Shown here: positions 40,371 to 53,906 of the stretch, piece after piece
How the letters are laid out: each line of letters starts with the position of its first letter
How positions within the stretch are numbered: position 1 is the first letter of the stretch
Assembly: GCA_024643325.1 (NCBI GenBank)
Contig: JAHEND010000034.1
Coordinates: forward strand, 1 to 64,000
Origin: Sediminicola sp.
GTDB taxonomy: Bacteria; Bacteroidota; Bacteroidia; Flavobacteriales; Flavobacteriaceae
Reading direction: 5' to 3'
Length of the DNA stretch: 64,000 nt
Translations under genes and position numbers: made by a program
Notes under the pieces: generated by a model
Told to the model about the DNA's origin: nothing
Seen by the model: the letters and a program-made list of their open reading frames with translations, nothing else
The model's database searches: none

Positions 40371-41203
40371 AATTCTCTAGCATTAGTGTATTCTCCTAAG
40401 ACCCTAAACTCAGCGGCCATAATTTCCAAAATAGCCCTTGCTTTGGCATAGTCTTCATATTGATCAAAAGTAACGTCTACAAAAAAAGCATACTTCCATG
40501 GAAGGTCTATTACTGGAAGTGATTGGATTTTTGTTAAATTTAAGTGGCAGTCACTCATCACATTGAGTACTGCAGCCAGGCTCCCTCTTTTATGGTCAAG
40601 CACAAAACGAAGCGATGCTTTATTAATTTCCTCTTGAGGAATTTCCTTAGAGGTTGTTTTTACAATAATAAAACGGGTGGCATTGTTTTTAATAGTCTGT
40701 ATGTCAGAAGCTAATACATCTAGGCCATATAAACCAGCAGCAACTTTAGGCGCTATAGCAGCAATACCCTTTAGTTGACCAGATTGAATTCGTTGAGCTG
40801 TTTCAGCAGTATCTACATCTTCTACCAATTGAATGTGTGGGTGTTTTTTAAAAAACTCATGACATTGTAATAAGGCCATAGGATGAGAATGCACCGCCTT
40901 AATATCCTCTATTCCCTGTCCTGGTAAAACCATAAGATGGTGGTGAATATTTAAGTAGTATTCCCCAATAATATGTAAGTGATGGTCAAACACCAAAGCA
41001 TAATTCGGTATAATAGAGCCCGCAATGGAATTTTCAATAGCCATAATACCCTTATCTGCCCTACCATCTATAAGTTCCTGAACTAAGGCCGGAAAAGACA
41101 TACAAGGAAGCATCTCCTGATCAGATCCATAACAATCTATAGCCACCTGATGGTGGTTAGAGCCTTTTATGCCTTGAATGGCTATTGTCATTTTTTCTTT
41201 CAT
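40367..41203 (-). CDS. pheA: Prephenate dehydratase
   Basis: PheA turns prephenate into phenylpyruvate. The 278-residue monofunctional enzyme has the catalytic N-A-T-R-F motif near residue 185 and a C-terminal ACT domain (S-L-R-F-V-L-D-H-K-R-G-S-L ... L-T-K-I-Q-S-L-P-V). The classical Phe-binding motifs G-A-L-V and E-S-R-P are changed to G-S-L-A and Q-S-L-P, so feedback by Phe may be weak. It is the first structural gene after the aromatic attenuator. The start could also be the ATG at 41191-41189 (M-T-I-A-I-Q-G-I-K-G). Confidence 0.93.
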   Translation of the reverse strand: MKEKMTIAIQGIKGSNHHQVAIDCYGSDQEMLPCMSFPALVQELIDGRADKGIMAIENSIAGSIIPNYALVFDHHLHIIGEYYLNIHHHLMVLPGQGIEDIKAVHSHPMALLQCHEFFKKHPHIQLVEDVDTAETAQRIQSGQLKGIAAIAPKVAAGLYGLDVLASDIQTIKNNATRFIIVKTTSKEIPQEEINKASLRFVLDHKRGSLAAVLNVMSDCHLNLTKIQSLPVIDLPWKYAFFVDVTFDQYEDYAKARAILEIMAAEFRVLGEYTNAREL

Positions 41204-41211
41204 TTTTAATC

Positions 41212-41303
41212 AAAAAAAAAATCCCGCAACAGCGGGACTCTTAATAAGGTATATCGTTCACAATATCCTAGAAAAGCCCCGTACTTCTATTAAAATAGAA
41301 GTA
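41212..41303 (-). promoter_or_regulatory. Aromatic amino acid transcription attenuator
   Basis: On the minus strand, in transcript order, three elements appear. Hairpin 1:2, TACTTCTAT (41303-41295) with ATAGAAGTA (41290-41282), lies over the Phe/Tyr codons. Segment CGGGGCTTTT (41281-41272) can pair over 10 positions (two G-U) with AAGAGTCCCG (41242-41233), an antiterminator. The terminator pairs AGTCCCGC (41239-41232) with GCGGGATT (41227-41220) around TGTT and ends in ten Ts, 9 bases before the pheA start. Antiterminator and terminator share AGTCCCG, so they exclude each other. A ribosome stalled on the aromatic codons would free the antiterminator; one reaching the stop at 41268 would cover it. 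Pairings are read directly; regulation is inferred. Confidence 0.88.
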
Positions 41304-41342
41304 AAAGTAAAAACGGTTCCAGAAATTTGTGCTAAGTGTCAT
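41268..41342 (-). CDS. Phe/Tyr leader peptide (24 residues)
   Basis: A 25-codon frame starts at the ATG complementary to 41342-41340 and stops at TAG (41270-41268). Residues 11-17 are F-Y-F-Y-F-Y-F, residue 7 is Phe, 8 is Trp and 24 is Phe: six Phe, three Tyr and one Trp in 24 residues. It lies just upstream of the terminator in front of pheA. This is the classic composition of an attenuation leader for aromatic amino acid synthesis. The peptide itself need not have a function. Confidence 0.88.
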   Translation of the reverse strand: MTLSTNFWNRFYFYFYFNRSTGLF

Positions 41343-41355
41343 ATTTTCTCTTACG

Positions 41356-41389
41356 AAAAGCTAATGTAATTATTATATTTAAAAGACAA
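41356..41389 (-). promoter_or_regulatory. Promoter of the pheA leader
   Basis: On the minus strand TTG (41389-41387), a 23-base spacer and TAGCTTTT (41363-41356) fit the Bacteroidota promoter with one mismatch in the last base of the -7 box. Transcription would start about 41349, a few bases before the leader start codon at 41342. Confidence 0.55.
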
Positions 41390-47445: not shown

Positions 47446-50400
47446 TTAATTCTTCTCCACAATTCTTAAAATGTCTCCAAAGACTCCTCTTGCGGTGACT
47501 GTGGCACCTGCTCCGGCGCCTTGAATAACAATAGGCTGGTCTCCATAAGATTCTGTATATATTTCAATAATAGAATCTGCTCCTTTTACCTGACCTAAGG
47601 GGCTTTGTTTGGGCACTTTACAAAGTCCCGCACTGAGTTGACCTTTCTCTTTTTGCAAATCACCCCCTAAAACCCCTACATATCTCAGAACCTCATCTGG
47701 GGCTAAACCTGCTTTTATCTCTGCAAATATAGGATCTAATTTAGACATTTGTGCTAAGAATCCGGGGGCATCTAGTGCCTGTAATCCTTCTGGGATTAAA
47801 TTTTCAATCACCTCCTCTGAAAACTCATTCTTTAAGTCTAATTCTCTCGCCAAAATAAGTAGTTTCCTACCCACATCGTTTCCGCTGAGGTCTTCCCTTG
47901 GGTCAGGCTCCGTATATCCATTATTTAAAGCCTCTTGTACGACTTGTGAAAAAGGGATTTCTGCTGTTGAAAAAGTATTGAATATATAGCTCAACGAGCC
48001 TGAGAATACCCCTCTAATCTGAGTGATGTTTTCACCAGAAAGATGGAGTAATTTAATGGTGTCTATCAGGGGTAGTCCAGCACCTACATTGGTCTCATAT
48101 AAGTATTGCTTTTGATACGCTCCTAGGGTTTCCCTCAGGGATTTGTATTGATTAAACGGTAAGGTATTGGCAATTTTATTAGAAGAAACCAGGTCAAACC
48201 CATAACGCACAAAGCCTTCGTAATGCTGAACAAAAGAGGTGCTTGCTGTATTGTCTACCAGTATTAAATTTTCTAAATGCTGCTCCTGGGCGTACGAAAA
48301 GAGTTTTTCAAAATGTACCGCTTCTCCTAAAGAATTGAGGTCTGAACGCCAATCTTGTGAAGCCGTTCCAATTCCTTGTGCATTCAACAACATCTTTTTG
48401 GAATTTAAAAGGGCAAAAACCTGAAGTTTAATTCCTTTTCTCGCTTCAATTTGAGGGGCAGTCTTTAAAATTTGGTCAATGAGAGCACCGCCTACTTGTC
48501 CCACACCTACTACAGCTATATTCACTTTTTTAGGTTGTCCAAAAATCTGAGCATGCATAACGTTCAGTGCCTTGTTTAGGTCTTTTTTAAGCAAGACCAA
48601 AGAAACATTTTTACCCGTAACCGTATTGTTAAAAAGCAAAGGCACTATCTGGTTTTTAATAAGCGCATTATAAGGTTTGTGAAAAGAGCTCAAATCTTGA
48701 CCCACAATAGAAATAACAGAGACCTGATCTACTGCATATATTCTATTGACATCCTGGGCGTAAAAATCTTGCTCAAATTCTCGCTCTAGGGAAATAATGG
48801 CCTCGGTAGCGTCTTTTGCGGCTACCACCAAACCAATGCCTCTTTCAGAAGAACCCTGAGAAATAATACTGACACTAATATGGGCATTCCCCAGGGTTTT
48901 AAAAATACGGGCATCTACTCCTGCTTTTCCCAACAAACCGCGTCCTTCTATGTTAATAAGGGTCACATCTGCTATCACTGAGAGGGATTTAATACCCGCC
49001 TCAGTGGGTGTAGCACTAATGAGCGTTCCTTCGTTGTCTGCCTTAAAGGTGTTTAGAATTCTAAGGGGAATGTTTTTTTCAATGAGCGGAATAATGGTTT
49101 TAGCATGTAGTATTGTAGTCCCAAAATTAGCCAACTCATTGGCCTCGCTATAAGACAAAGCGGCAATTTTTTCTGCCTCTGGCACCAAGTTGGGGTCTGC
49201 GGTATAAATCCCGTCTACATGGGTGAAGTTCTGAAGCTCTCCAGCGTCTAAAAAACTTGCGATTAGGGCAGCTGAATAATTACTCCCATTACGGCCTAGC
49301 GTAGTGGTTTCTCCTTTTTCATTAGAACCAATAAAACCAGTAAAAACGGGAATATTCTGAGGTGCTAATGCCTCATAAGCAGCTAAAACTGCTTTTTTTG
49401 ACAGGGCCTCTTTTACAGATGCATTTCCAAAGTCACTATTGGTTTTTATCAATGCCCTGGTATCTAAAAGTTGTGCGTCTATTCCTTGCTGTGAAAGTAA
49501 ATAAACCAGTGTTTTTGCAGCGAGTAATTCTCCAAAAGACAAGACTTGGTCTTTGGTCTTTTCACTGTAATCTTTAATGAGGGTTACCCCAGCTAAAATC
49601 TGACTCAGTTGTTCAAATTCATGGGCCAAAATAGGCTCCTTTAATGGCGTGGTTTGTTGGGCTTTGAAAAAATCCAGGGCAGGATGGTAGTCCTGGCCTT
49701 GGGACGCAAGTTCCAACAAACGCTCTAATTGGTCAGTAGCATTGTCTCTGGCAGAAACCACCAAGGCGATGGGTTGCTGGGCTTCTTTTTTAGCCCCTAC
49801 AATCTCAATGACTTTAGAAAGGCCCTCTCCATTGGCCAATGAAGTGCCACCAAACTTTAATACCTGCACCTTGGCTGTCGCTGCTTGGGGTTTAAAAATA
49901 CCTGCTAAAAGGACCTCTAACTGCTCAAATTCTAACAAAAAGGCATCGTGCCCATGCACAGAAGTAATTTCTCCATAGGTTACATTGGACTGAGATTGTG
50001 CCAGTTGCTTAAACGTTTCTTTATTTTCAGTGGCCGTAAAAAACAAATCTGAGTCTACCCCTATAATGTGAATATGAGTGTCACTCTCTTGTAATTTTCT
50101 AAAAGCCTCCGGACCATTTTTGGTAATGTCTATAGATCTTAACAGCTGATTCACCAATTTATACGCAGACAACTGAAACCTTGACTGCAATTTTTCTCCA
50201 TGATGGGTAAGCCAACTCTCGACATTGAATACCTGAAGGGCTTCATTGGTGCTTCTATTAAAGCGCTGGTTAAAAGATTCAGGAGTTCTGTAACACAACA
50301 TAGCGTGCATGCGCGCATCGTGAACTGGTTGCTTGGAATTTAATAGAAATTGTTCCTGTATTTGACAATTGGCAATGAGCCAATCGGTAGATTTCCAATC

Positions 50401-50838
50401 AGATGCTACAGGAATTAAATGCGACGTAATGTCTGGATTTAAAGCCGCCATTTCCCAGGCAATTCCACCTCCGAGAGACCCACCTATAATTGCGTAAAGC
50501 TTTGAAACTCCTAAAGCTTCCAAACCCAATAAAAATAACTGCGCTATGTCTTTGGCTACAAATTGTTTGTACGCATCTATCACAAAACCGTCGTATCCAT
50601 TGCCTGGAATATTAAAAGCCAAGACTGCATACCGATTGGTATCAATACATTTTTCGGGGCCAATCAAGGCAGACCACCAACCGTCATCTCCCGCTACGTT
50701 GGAGTTTCCTGTAAGGGCATGGTTCACTAAAACAACCGGCGCCTGGTCTAAAGGAAGACCAAAGTGCTCATAGCTCAAGGAAATATCTTGTGTATGATTC
50801 GACTGTGTTTTAAAGGCTTTAATAGCGAGCTTTTTCAT
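47446..50838 (-). CDS. MetX-aspartokinase-homoserine dehydrogenase fusion
   Basis: This 1130-residue protein joins three enzymes of the aspartate-to-methionine route. Residues 1-315 are an alpha/beta hydrolase of the homoserine O-acetyltransferase type, with nucleophile Ser121 in G-G-S-L-G-G and probable acid Asp264 and base His297 (H-G-H-D-A-F). Residues about 323-610 are aspartokinase (V-L-K-F-G-G-T-S), then an ACT region to about 765, and residues about 770-1130 are homoserine dehydrogenase (V-V-G-V-G-Q-V-G-G; G-G-D-L at the end region). Only aspartate-semialdehyde dehydrogenase is missing for conversion of aspartate to O-acetylhomoserine. MetX residues look complete, so activity is likely but inferred. 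Confidence 0.92.
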   Translation of the reverse strand: MKKLAIKAFKTQSNHTQDISLSYEHFGLPLDQAPVVLVNHALTGNSNVAGDDGWWSALIGPEKCIDTNRYAVLAFNIPGNGYDGFVIDAYKQFVAKDIAQLFLLGLEALGVSKLYAIIGGSLGGGIAWEMAALNPDITSHLIPVASDWKSTDWLIANCQIQEQFLLNSKQPVHDARMHAMLCYRTPESFNQRFNRSTNEALQVFNVESWLTHHGEKLQSRFQLSAYKLVNQLLRSIDITKNGPEAFRKLQESDTHIHIIGVDSDLFFTATENKETFKQLAQSQSNVTYGEITSVHGHDAFLLEFEQLEVLLAGIFKPQAATAKVQVLKFGGTSLANGEGLSKVIEIVGAKKEAQQPIALVVSARDNATDQLERLLELASQGQDYHPALDFFKAQQTTPLKEPILAHEFEQLSQILAGVTLIKDYSEKTKDQVLSFGELLAAKTLVYLLSQQGIDAQLLDTRALIKTNSDFGNASVKEALSKKAVLAAYEALAPQNIPVFTGFIGSNEKGETTTLGRNGSNYSAALIASFLDAGELQNFTHVDGIYTADPNLVPEAEKIAALSYSEANELANFGTTILHAKTIIPLIEKNIPLRILNTFKADNEGTLISATPTEAGIKSLSVIADVTLINIEGRGLLGKAGVDARIFKTLGNAHISVSIISQGSSERGIGLVVAAKDATEAIISLEREFEQDFYAQDVNRIYAVDQVSVISIVGQDLSSFHKPYNALIKNQIVPLLFNNTVTGKNVSLVLLKKDLNKALNVMHAQIFGQPKKVNIAVVGVGQVGGALIDQILKTAPQIEARKGIKLQVFALLNSKKMLLNAQGIGTASQDWRSDLNSLGEAVHFEKLFSYAQEQHLENLILVDNTASTSFVQHYEGFVRYGFDLVSSNKIANTLPFNQYKSLRETLGAYQKQYLYETNVGAGLPLIDTIKLLHLSGENITQIRGVFSGSLSYIFNTFSTAEIPFSQVVQEALNNGYTEPDPREDLSGNDVGRKLLILARELDLKNEFSEEVIENLIPEGLQALDAPGFLAQMSKLDPIFAEIKAGLAPDEVLRYVGVLGGDLQKEKGQLSAGLCKVPKQSPLGQVKGADSIIEIYTESYGDQPIVIQGAGAGATVTARGVFGDILRIVEKN

Positions 50839-50886: not shown

Positions 50887-52188
50887 TTATACCAATTGGG
50901 TGGCTTTAATAGTTTCAAAAACAGTGGTTAAATCTGCCTTTAGATCCTCTATATCTTCTAATCCAACAGAAAGTCTAATTAAGTCTTCCGTTACACCAGT
51001 AGTCAATTGAGCCTCTGGTGACAATTGCTGGTGCGTGGTGCTCGCAGGGTGTATAATTAATGATTTGCTGTCTCCTATGTTTGCCAATAAAGAGAATAAT
51101 TTGGTCTCATTGGCTACTTTTTTAGCAGATTCAAAACCGCCTTTTACTCCAAAAGTAACAATGCCACTTTGTCCCTTAGGTAAATAACTTTGGGCTAATT
51201 CACGGTAGGCACTAGAGGCCAAACCTGGGTAGTTTACCCAAGAAACCAATTCTTGTTCCTCTAACCATGAGGCCAAGGCTAAGGCATTTTCTGAGTGCTT
51301 GGCAATTCTAATGGTCAAGGTTTCTAAACCTTGTAAAATCTGAAAGGCATTGAAAGGGCTAATGGCCGCTCCATAATCTCTAAGCCCCTCAATTCTCACT
51401 TTGGCAATAAAGGAAGCTGCTCCTAAAGCCTCGTGATAAATAAGTCCGTGATAACCCGCAGAAGGTTCAGTAAATTCTGGGAATTTTCCATTGCTCCAAT
51501 CAAAGGTTCCAGCATCTATAATCGCCCCGCCCAAAGCCGTTCCGTTTCCATTAATATATTTGGTGAGCGAATGAATCACAATATTAGCCCCGTGTGCAAT
51601 AGGATTCAACAGTGCTGGAGTAGCTACCGTATTGTCTACAATAAAAGGCACTTTAGCGGCTTTAGCATGGGCTGCAATTGCCTTTAAATCCAATACATCT
51701 AATTTTGGATTTCCCAATGACTCTGCAAAGAAAGCCCTAGTATTTCCCTGAACGGCTGCCTCAAAATTGGCCGGATCTGAAGGGTCTACAAAAGTGGTCG
51801 TAATGCCCAACCTAGGTAGGGTCACGTTAAGTAAATTATAGGTTCCCCCGTACAAACTATTAGAGGCCACAATATGGTCTCCCGCTTTTAAAAGCACTAG
51901 TAAGGAGGTCGCAATGGCTGCGGTTCCAGATGCAGTGACCACAGAAGCAATACCGCCTTCTAAAGCAGCCAAACGCTGTTCTAAAATGTCTGTGGTAGGG
52001 TTGTTAATTCTGGTGTAAATATTTCCTGGCTCTGCCAAAGAAAATAAATTAGCCGCATGCTCTGCGCTGTCAAAGACATAGGCAGTACTCTGATAAATGG
52101 GTACAGCCCTTGTGCCTCCAGTTAATTTTGGATCGTGCCCAGCATGTAATGCGTTTGTGGCAAATTGGTTGTTGTTTTCGGTACTCAT
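50887..52188 (-). CDS. metY: O-acetylhomoserine sulfhydrylase (MetY type)
   Basis: MetY makes homocysteine from O-acetylhomoserine and sulfide. The 433-residue length and the PLP lysine in H-S-L-T-K-Y-I-N-G-N-G-T-A-L-G-G mark the MetY branch and not MetZ. A-L-H-A-G-H-D-P at the start is also typical. It is the first gene of the five-gene met operon and directly follows a SAM-I riboswitch. The product of the downstream MetX domain is its substrate. Confidence 0.93.
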   Translation of the reverse strand: MSTENNNQFATNALHAGHDPKLTGGTRAVPIYQSTAYVFDSAEHAANLFSLAEPGNIYTRINNPTTDILEQRLAALEGGIASVVTASGTAAIATSLLVLLKAGDHIVASNSLYGGTYNLLNVTLPRLGITTTFVDPSDPANFEAAVQGNTRAFFAESLGNPKLDVLDLKAIAAHAKAAKVPFIVDNTVATPALLNPIAHGANIVIHSLTKYINGNGTALGGAIIDAGTFDWSNGKFPEFTEPSAGYHGLIYHEALGAASFIAKVRIEGLRDYGAAISPFNAFQILQGLETLTIRIAKHSENALALASWLEEQELVSWVNYPGLASSAYRELAQSYLPKGQSGIVTFGVKGGFESAKKVANETKLFSLLANIGDSKSLIIHPASTTHQQLSPEAQLTTGVTEDLIRLSVGLEDIEDLKADLTTVFETIKATQLV

Positions 52189-52207: not shown

Positions 52208-52312
52208 AAAAAAATAATTAAAAAGCCAAACCCCCTCTAGCGGCGCCACTAGATGGGTAAAAATCGAAAAAGTTACATAAGAAAGTTCGCTTACAGACGG
52301 TAAGCATTCCGG
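52208..52312 (-). terminator. Expression platform of the SAM-I riboswitch
   Basis: Downstream of the aptamer on the minus strand there are two hairpins. GCTTAC and GTAAGC pair at 52305-52289 around a 5-base loop. Then CCCATCTAGTG (52257-52247) pairs with CGCTAGAGGGG (52242-52232), with one A-G mismatch and a G-U pair, followed by GTTTGGCTTTTT and TTTTTTT runs to about 52208. The second is terminator-like and 44 bases or more before the metY start. Which hairpin is exclusive with the aptamer was not resolved. Confidence 0.6.
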
Positions 52313-52413
52313 TTATCTATTCTCAAATGAGATAGAATGTAGCACCTTCTTTGCATAAAACAAAGGGTTGCTAAGGCTTCACAGGGTCTAATCCCTCCAC
52401 CTTTCTTGATAAC
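52313..52413 (-). ncRNA. SAM-I (S-box) riboswitch upstream of metY
   Basis: Read on the minus strand from 52413, the aptamer contains ATCAAGAAAGGTGGAGGGA, then GACCC, TGAAGCC, TAGCAACC and AAGGTGCTA, the conserved S-box nucleotides in order. P1 is GTTATC with GATAAC at the two ends. SAM binding should favour termination before metY when SAM is plentiful. The next gene is the metY-led operon, which makes methionine, the SAM precursor. A -7 box (TATCTTTG, minus strand 52447-52440) lies 27 bases upstream of the aptamer. Binding is inferred from the sequence match. Confidence 0.92.
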
Positions 52414-52439
52414 TATTCAATAATTGTTTGAACTTATTT

Positions 52440-52486: not shown

Positions 52487-53743
52487 TCACAAATCAAAGG
52501 CTTTTTGTACCTCTGACACTTTATCTAATTGTTCCCATGTAAACAGGGTCACTTCTTTCTCTACTCTACCGTTGTAAGGAGATTCAAAAACTTTGGTTAC
52601 TTTTCTAGGGGTTTTTCCCATATGGCCGTAAGCAGCCGTTTCTAAATAAATAGGGTTGCGCAATTGCAAACGCTCCTCAATAGCATGCGGACGCATGTCA
52701 AAAATTTCGCTTACTTTTTTAGCTATTTCACCATCTGTTAGGCCTGTGGCCGATGTCCCATAAGTATCTACATAAATACTCGTAGGCTCCACGACTCCAA
52801 TAGCATAACTGAGTTGTACCAAAATTTCTGAAGCCACTCCAGCTGCTACTAAATTCTTAGCCGCATGTCTGGCGGCATAGGCCGCAGAACGGTCTACCTT
52901 GGAAGGATCTTTCCCACTAAAAGCACCTCCTCCATGGGCCCCTTTACCCCCGTAGGTATCTACAATAATTTTTCTCCCTGTAAGACCCGTATCTCCGTGA
53001 GGACCACCAATCACAAACTTACCCGTAGGGTTTATGTAATAGGTAATTTGATCATTAAACAAGGCCTGTACATGAGCCGGAAACTTTGCTACTACTCTTG
53101 GCAAAAGCTTTTCAATAATATCTTTTTTGATTGTCTCTAACATGGCCTGATCGTCTTCTAAAAAGGGATCGTGCTGGGTAGAAACTACAATTGTGTCAAT
53201 TCGTTGTGGTTGATTGTCGTCTGAATATTCAATAGTCACCTGGGCTTTAGCATCTGGTCTGAGATAAGTAATCTGGGTTCCCTCTCTTCTCATTGCGGCC
53301 AATTCCTCTAATATTTTATGAGAAATATCTAAGGCCAAAGGCATGAAGTTCTCTGTCTCTTTAGACGCATAACCAAACATCATTCCTTGATCGCCCGCAC
53401 CTTGCTCTTCTTTAGCACCCCTGTCTACTCCTTGATTAATATCCTGAGACTGCTCGTGTATTAAAGAAATAACCCCACAAGAGTCTCCACTGAACTGATA
53501 CGCCCCTTTGGTATAGCCAATTTTGTTAATCACATCTCTGGCTATTTGCTGAACGTCTAAATAGGTATTGCTTTTTACTTCACCCGCCAATACTACTTGT
53601 CCAGTAGTCACTAAGGTTTCACAAGCCACTTTGCTCTGAGGATCAAAGGCTAAAAAATTGTCTAAAAGGGCGTCTGAAATCTGATCCGCAATTTTATCTG
53701 GGTGTCCTTCACTCACAGATTCTGAAGTAAATAAATAAGCCAT
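52487..53743 (-). CDS. metK: S-adenosylmethionine synthetase
   Basis: MetK makes SAM from methionine and ATP. The 418-residue protein has [12 protein letters not shown] near the N-terminus, the [12 protein letters not shown] loop, [12 protein letters not shown] and [16 protein letters not shown]. Its own leader carries a SAM-II riboswitch, so SAM would repress its own synthetase. A separate promoter makes it independent of the metY operon. Confidence 0.97.
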
Positions 53744-53820
53744 AGCATCAATTTTTAAAGTGTGCGAGGGCGAATTTGACTTGTTAGCGGGGTTTTTTCA
53801 CTATATAGAATCTATGGTGA

Positions 53821-53893
53821 ACTGCTTTAGCACTTTTTTTTACATCAGCCTGGGCTTTGTAAAGAGGTTGCAATCAGTCAAATCCTTCCTCTT
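53821..53893 (-). ncRNA. SAM-II riboswitch upstream of metK, with inserted hairpin
   Basis: On the minus strand from 53893, P1 is AGAGG with CCTCT, closing loop GATTTGACTGATTGCA, the SAM-II core (consensus GAUUUaACcgUaUUGCA). The 3' end GTGCTAAAGCAG supplies the conserved GCUAAA and a CAGT that pairs with ACTG in the loop, giving the pseudoknot. This ACTG/CAGT pairing replaces the ACC/GG pairing of known aptamers, i.e. a compensatory change. Between P1 and the 3' segment a hairpin, TTTACA/TGTAAA with inner AGCC/GGCT, is inserted. The following gene is metK. A long-loop SAM-II form has been described; I rely on memory for that. Confidence 0.82.
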
Positions 53894-53906
53894 AATAAAT
53901 ATGAGG

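Follow-up and report, generated by a model that had tools for sequence, protein, structure and literature searches.

The region upstream of pheA in Sediminicola sp. raises the question of whether a single leader peptide can report on the supply of two end products, phenylalanine and tyrosine, of the operon that it precedes. We analyzed a window of 64,000 nucleotides (the whole stretch of DNA under study, from contig JAHEND010000034.1) together with the corresponding loci of other genomes. Judging from these sequence comparisons, we hold with considerable confidence that the pheA-aminotransferase-tyrA-DAHP synthase/chorismate mutase operon is controlled by a ribosome-mediated transcription attenuator. 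Sensing of Phe by this attenuator appears near certain, and sensing of Tyr appears likely. The features on which the argument is built are collected in Table 1.

Table 1. Features of the pheA leader region and of the operon that follows it, in window coordinates.
Feature	Position	Strand	Details
Candidate promoter, Bacteroidota type	41389-41361	minus	TTG 41389-41387, 18 nt, TACATTAG 41368-41361
Leader peptide ORF	41342-41268	minus	24 codons + stop, MTLSTNFWNRFYFYFYFNRSTGLF; kept in relatives
Control codons F-Y-F-Y-F-Y-F, residues 11-17	41312-41292	minus	Distance to antiterminator strand conserved
Hairpin over Phe/Tyr codons, probable pause hairpin	41303-41282	minus	41303-41295 with 41290-41282, 9 bp, codons 14-16
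Antiterminator 5′ strand (region 2)	41281-41272	minus	Within leader codons 21-24, CGGGGCTTTT
Shared strand (region 3)	41242-41233	minus	Pairs with region 2 (antiterminator) or region 4 (terminator), AAGAGTCCCG
Intrinsic terminator	41242-41212	minus	11-pair stem 41242-41217, 4-nt loop, T-run to 41212
pheA, prephenate dehydratase	41203-40367	minus	PF00800
Class I/II aminotransferase	40370-39222	minus	PF00155; downstream, same strand, in 110/110 loci
tyrA, prephenate dehydrogenase	39219-38356	minus	Downstream in 106/110 loci (flank of L109 short)
DAHP synthase-chorismate mutase fusion	38311-37229	minus	Domain assignment in window

An earlier, sequence-only reading of this locus had claimed an operon shared by both end products, and the gene content bears this out, as pheA, the aminotransferase and tyrA are all present and make Phe and Tyr. 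For the DAHP synthase, the linkage count is 0/110 in loci whose compared flanks end before the gene. A gene for EPSP synthase lies further downstream in the window, with other genes in between. Besides the ATG at 41203, pheA has a second in-frame ATG at 41191 on the minus strand, and this may be the true start because many relatives' PheA proteins align only from residue 4-6.

The leader peptide had been described as 24 codons long, with the alternating run at residues 11-17, Trp8 and two further Phe, and all of these are found as placed, the three outside the run being Phe7, Trp8 and Phe24. Leu occurs twice in the peptide, at residues 3 and 23. The window thus contains a short ORF rich in codons for the end products upstream of pheA, and dinucleotide shuffles of the window's upstream region gave an ATG ORF with at least seven aromatics in eight residues in 2 of 5000 cases. 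The codon pattern of the run (TTYTAYTTYTAYTTYTAYTTY) has a single occurrence in the 1.96-Mb draft genome, which is the pheA leader itself, and the folding stability of the leader-region RNA exceeds that of all 200 shuffles (z -4.1). Promoters of the Bacteroidota type are defined by the motifs TTG and TAnnTTTG. The candidate site ahead of the leader departs from the second motif at one position, and promoter-like sites with at most one mismatch in that motif lie within 90 nt before the leader in 94/124 genera, where 13.4 would be expected from base-shuffled sequence; exact matches are found in 18/124 genera, with 0.8 expected on the same basis.

Two sets of relatives were compared. The family set has 149 genomes, each with a genus label of its own, of which 130 yielded pheA; statistics were computed on this one-per-genus set. 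The named set, the best 80 of 548 matches, comprises loci of Maribacter, Zobellia, Arenibacter, Flagellimonas, Muricauda/Allomuricauda, a Cellulophaga and other bacteria. Its loci overlap genome loci, for instance in the pairs L003/L038, L006/L066, L008/L080, L009/L085 and L010/L108, whose contigs have equal length. A script that looked upstream of pheA for ATG ORFs of 8-45 codons with at least five aromatics in eight residues found a leader in 124 of the 130 family genomes with pheA and in 79 of the 80 named loci. Additions by eye (L027, L044 and L121, in which the leader is cut by the search frame or the contig end) bring these counts to 126/130 and, among the best 80 of 548 matches, to 80/80. 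Four family genomes (L133, L173, L191 and L196) have no leader in the 450 nt searched upstream of pheA, or 382 nt for L191. Eight additional same-family loci, fetched from 13 new ones, all have both leader and terminator.

These counts lie far from chance. Stretches of eight residues with at least five aromatics occur in 90% of the 268 upstream regions compared (from the family and beyond it, with the short loci L044 and L121 left out), compared with 5.2% of 5360 shuffles and 17.9% of antisense sequences, and at a threshold of at least seven the corresponding values are 67.5%, 0.02% and 0%. An intrinsic terminator lies between the leader and the first gene, in the window as in the relatives, where each of the 203 leaders found by script has one behind it; at the lowest score among the 124 genera, a hairpin with a T-run is found in 124/124 family leaders and in 11/620 shuffles. 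The residues upstream of the run vary widely among relatives, and F and Y swap. The Phe/Tyr alternation stressed in the earlier reading holds for the window (FYFYFYF) but is not conserved, as FYFYFFF is common in relatives; what is conserved is the mixture. An alignment with other Flavobacteriaceae had been proposed as a check on that reading, and it came out in its favor, with a conserved aromatic frame and compensatory changes in the stems.

Outside the family sets, pheA was matched in 33/119 class genomes and 66/118 order genomes, and 52 non-family loci were fetched, namely all 30 class-set matches and 22 of 45 further order-set matches. The aromatic scan was passed by 31 of the 52, comprising 20/29 from other orders (14 family labels) and 11/23 from the same order, and a comparable terminator follows 28 of these 31 leaders. 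Three of the non-family leaders are doubtful: L252, from a 0.6-Mb genome and without a terminator, L227, with a 198-nt gap, and L224. Loci L233 and L234 show weak hairpins only. The scan was negative in all seven loci fetched for family label f2 (of 18 matches) and in all four for f13. In f69, which comprises 0.6-Mb genomes, it failed in four of the five loci fetched (of 17 matches), and the fifth lacks a terminator. These tiny genomes of the same order (L249 and L251-L254) have kept pheA, and leader-terminator control has apparently been lost from them.

The terminator claimed ahead of pheA is confirmed in the window, and 8 bases separate the end of its T-run from the ATG at 41203. Its 5′ arm is region 3, which can instead pair with region 2 over 10 positions, and this alternative pairing, in which two pairs are G-U, is exactly the one claimed earlier. 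The antiterminator therefore excludes the terminator, and the two covary. When terminator arms were permuted among the 124 leaders, the observed pairing of regions 2 and 3 was reached 0 times in 1000 (z 14.7), and with a 7-base core score, 93% of the 124 leaders score no lower than the 95% level obtained with shuffled leaders. Leader types differ by one column in where the MAFFT alignment puts region 2, and covariation was therefore counted on pairing-anchored segments. After 11 of the 124 leaders (core score <9) had been left out of the spacing, covariation-pair and hairpin counts, 113 were usable. In these, the third pair of regions 2 and 3 is A-T in 62, G-C in 49 and G-T in 2, and at the pair that is U-G in 31 terminators, A-U is lost in at most 2 antiterminators. 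The arms AGTCTCG and AGTCCCG tend to accompany CGAGAC-type and GGGAC-type leaders, respectively, and the two AACCCGG arms accompany CCGGGTT. Since regions 2 and 4 were chosen as the positions that pair best, these pair percentages lean towards pairing; the permutation of arms is the fairer control, with the reservation that related sequences are not independent. A pairing score over the whole leader, compared with mononucleotide-shuffled leaders, was replaced: it placed region 2 inside the aromatic run for some leaders, and only 54% of the 203 beat the 95% level and 17% the 99% level.

The position of the control codons is as regular as the pairing. In the 113 usable leaders of 124, aromatic codons occupy 93-100% of positions at 12-23 nt upstream of region 2, 6% at 9-11 nt and 0% at 3-8 nt, and of the 452 codons at 12-23 nt, 443 encode Phe or Tyr. 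The same edge is seen in 78 usable of the 79 named leaders (best 80 of 548 loci). Outside the family it is softer, with 71% at 12-14 nt, 29% at 9-11 nt and 0% at 0-8 nt in 21 usable of 28 leaders. A somewhat different rule for region 2 was used for the named and outside-family spacing (1/79 and 7/28 dropped). The position of the last aromatic codon has an SD of 1.3 nt relative to region 2, 5.3 relative to the ORF end and 3.7 relative to the terminator arm, the first value being helped by the exclusion of aromatics starting at most 8 nt from region 2, of which few exist. The control codons are thus so placed that a stalled ribosome, given the 12-nt footprint assumed in our folding, would spare the antiterminator strand, and the conserved spacing is what the footprint of such a ribosome would demand. 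This provides a testable rule, namely that the run of control codons stops 12 nt upstream of the antiterminator strand.

Folding models agree with this placement. In the window model, with the ribosomal A site at any of codons 2-17 and a 12-nt footprint assumed, the antiterminator forms with a probability of 0.97, which falls to 0.78 at codon 18, 0.35 at 19, 0.10 at 20 and 0 from 21. Of 118 leaders modeled with a stalled ribosome at the run, 117 have the antiterminator above 0.5; six of the 124 had been left out because region 2 was not assigned downstream of the run. In full-length RNA at equilibrium, the terminator is favored in every state (0.64-0.90), and the switch must therefore be kinetic. 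Kinetic switching is usual for attenuators. The earlier reading had also claimed a hairpin over the Phe/Tyr codons. This hairpin is present and has a folding energy of -7.7 kcal/mol, where synonymously recoded leaders average -2.1. It lies right next to region 2 but does not sequester it, and in the folding model it leaves antitermination unblocked: without a ribosome, the window's antiterminator is again at 0.97, and the textbook 1:2 protector role is not seen. Across the 118 leaders, region 2 is held by upstream pairing at 0.28, compared with 0.05 for shuffled upstream sequence, and modeled protection exceeds 0.5 in only 30 of them and lies below that value in the window. The 34 nt before region 2 are more stable than in synonymously recoded leaders in 110/113 genera, which indicates that RNA structure shapes codon choice.

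Taken together, these observations suggest the following course of events. Transcription would start just upstream of the leader, from a promoter that we infer to be the candidate site in Table 1, and a ribosome would begin to translate the leader peptide. RNA polymerase would probably pause at the hairpin over the Phe/Tyr codons, which would let the ribosome keep pace. When charged tRNA-Phe (and, by the codon evidence, presumably tRNA-Tyr) is plentiful, the ribosome would reach the leader stop and cover region 2, region 3 would pair with region 4, and RNA polymerase would stop at the terminator in the cell. If either charged tRNA is scarce, the ribosome would halt at codons 11-17 with its leading edge not quite reaching region 2. 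The latter could then pair with region 3 before region 4 is made, so that no terminator would form and the operon would be transcribed.

Several other readings of the same region have to be weighed. Since metF lies upstream of the leader in the window and in the same direction, the terminator could be an ordinary metF terminator that happens to stand beside a chance aromatic ORF. We find this barely credible, as a metF match lies upstream in only 5 of 110 loci, so that the leader and terminator, found in nearly all relatives compared, are not part of metF; the promoter-like site ahead of the leader and the conservation of the element contradict it as well. It is also conceivable that a small molecule, and not tRNA charging, makes the aromatic peptide stall the ribosome, a reading that a conserved aromatic-rich leader peptide would fit too. 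Arrest peptides carry specific motifs, whereas here F and Y replace each other among relatives and the upstream residues vary widely, and leaders of similar layout with His and Trp codons stand before hisG and trpE in the same genome, all of which makes nascent-peptide arrest very improbable. A sensor of all three aromatic amino acids, in which Trp codons would count because the operon's DAHP synthase feeds the Trp branch, would fit the presence of Trp in 85/124 family leaders, most often 27-29 nt before region 2 (34/113). We regard it as unlikely, given that Trp is missing from 39/124 family leaders and from 25/31 leaders outside the family, that it fills 0 of the 452 last control codons, and that a separate WWW leader precedes trpE in the same genome.

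The most serious question is whether Tyr counts at all. The attenuator might answer Phe only, with the Tyr codons serving to break up poly-U, with its risk of polymerase slippage or termination, and to form the hairpin. The aroR leader of Corynebacterium glutamicum (Phe-Tyr-Phe), which according to the portion of the report consulted answers to Phe and not to Tyr availability (PMC11802643), offers a precedent, and Phe fills 277 of the 339 last three control codons. Every one of the 242 leaders found by script has both Phe and Tyr (124 from the family, 79 named from the best 80 of 548, 31 outside the family and 8 extra), but a random draw of F and Y at the observed proportions would rarely lack Y, so this co-presence alone is weak evidence. 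Against Phe alone stands the composition of the four control codons in 113 genera, where 308 of 452 are Phe, 135 are Tyr and 9 are others, with the remaining one-base neighbors of Phe contributing Ser 4, Ile 1, and Leu, Val and Cys 0. Tyr is moreover kept in the slot 21-23 nt before region 2 in 81/113 genera and in 67/78 named leaders (best 80 of 548 loci), it is nearly as frequent as Phe outside the family (31 Tyr and 40 Phe among 84 control codons of 21 leaders), and tyrA is downstream in 106/110 loci. The codon data thus argue that both amino acids count, and we regard sensing of Phe alone as possible rather than probable. We lean, by a modest degree, toward an attenuator that would act as a two-input OR gate, both in Flavobacteriaceae and in further orders of the class. 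Phe and Tyr codons would then be interchangeable sensors, set 12-23 nt upstream of the antiterminator strand by a ruler the length of a ribosome, and a lack of either amino acid would open the whole operon for both.

The same genome contains leaders for other amino acids. A His-rich leader, MTQTHTHHHFIYCAQAR (HTHHH), precedes hisG (L271:1215-1269, 0-based on the reverse complement of the locus; G000:C15), its stop lying 28 nt from a 12-pair terminator and 78 nt from hisG. A Trp leader, MIQNNTNNWWWNNLQRTL (WWW), precedes trpE (L272:1278-1335, 0-based offsets; G000:C29), its stop lying 25 nt from a terminator and 123 nt from trpE. Each is probably an attenuator for its operon. The gap from leader stop to terminator is 25-26 nt for the pheA leader, and each of the three operons thus has a peptide that matches it, in one common leader-terminator layout (gaps of 25-28 nt). 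Because His and Trp leaders accompany the pheA leader in this genome, the sequences suggest that leader-peptide attenuation is an ordinary means of amino-acid sensing in the group.

Riboswitch control of pheA was searched for as well, and no riboswitch or T-box was found upstream of the gene at the Rfam gathering score. Elsewhere in the window, SAM (79 bits) and SAM-II (65 bits) riboswitches lie 1.4 kb apart at 52310-52415 and 53817-53897 on the minus strand. The first precedes an ORF resembling a PLP enzyme of Cys/Met metabolism (50887-52188) and the second an ORF resembling S-adenosylmethionine synthetase (52487-53743), both named by eye. A 1130-aa ORF at 47446-50838 on the minus strand appears by eye to join a homoserine acetyltransferase-like part to an aspartokinase-homoserine dehydrogenase, and a Homoserine_dh domain was found in it.

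The principle of attenuation is textbook knowledge, and its combined Phe-and-Tyr version seems little studied. The closest classical relative is the E. coli pheA attenuator (pheL; RF01859 Phe_leader), which likewise places a leader peptide, a hairpin, an antiterminator and a terminator before the gene for prephenate dehydratase. Its leader has Phe codons and no Tyr codons, and its transcription unit does not include tyrA. The leader in the window differs in having Tyr codons and in having tyrA in the operon, and it scores 15.7 bits against RF01859, where the cut-off is 55 and the best of 12 relatives (of 270 loci) reaches 29.7. For RF00512 Leu_leader, a 301-base search gave 25.2 bits (E 0.0029) for the window, short of the cut-off of 50, and no Rfam family covers the element at gathering cut-offs in the window or at permissive E-values in the window and the 12 relatives. 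The enterobacterial ilvGMEDA and thrABC operons have multivalent attenuators in which the codons of several end products share one leader. They resemble the pheA leader in this respect and differ in amino acids and genes.

The existence of the element is not new, because a structured 5′ element upstream of pheA has already been reported in the Flavobacteriaceae, for Flavobacterium psychrophilum, together with strong indications of attenuation by leader peptides upstream of amino-acid operons, and with the observation that the pheA and hisG elements are present in other genera without Rfam hits (PMC9723704). That element shares gene and family with ours and, as far as the available part of the report allows one to say, is very probably the same; the leader sequence, its Phe/Tyr composition, the covariation of the antiterminator and the spacing of the codons are not in the part of the text seen (PMC9723704). 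A literature search that took in few subscription papers and articles without their supplements found no description of mixed Phe/Tyr codons, covariation or spacing for the pheA element, and none of a biosynthetic operon with a Tyr-sensing attenuator. Our analysis thus turns a passing remark into a defined regulatory element, present in 126 of 130 family genomes with pheA, which could become an Rfam family.

Leader peptides and comparable ORFs have been described more widely, including sORFs reminiscent of leader peptides in Bacteroides thetaiotaomicron, in the part of that report consulted (PMC7366714), and leader genes in general, in a source seen in part that cites a 2010 survey by Lopatovskaya (PMC4833913). 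As described in the text seen, the uORFC-13-1 motif is a candidate uORF with Phe codons and a terminator before aroF, the gene for DAHP synthase; it differs in coming from Acholeplasma and environmental sequences (24 examples) and in requiring at least one Phe codon, with a Tyr codon unmentioned in that text (PMC8632094). The nearest parallel is the aroR leader before aroF in C. glutamicum, which likewise mixes Phe and Tyr control codons before an operon of the aromatic pathway. It differs, according to the part of the report consulted, in being actinobacterial, in preceding a DAHP synthase operon and in having three aromatic residues (PMC11802643). Next to it, the pheA leader offers a simple test of whether one leader reads two end products.
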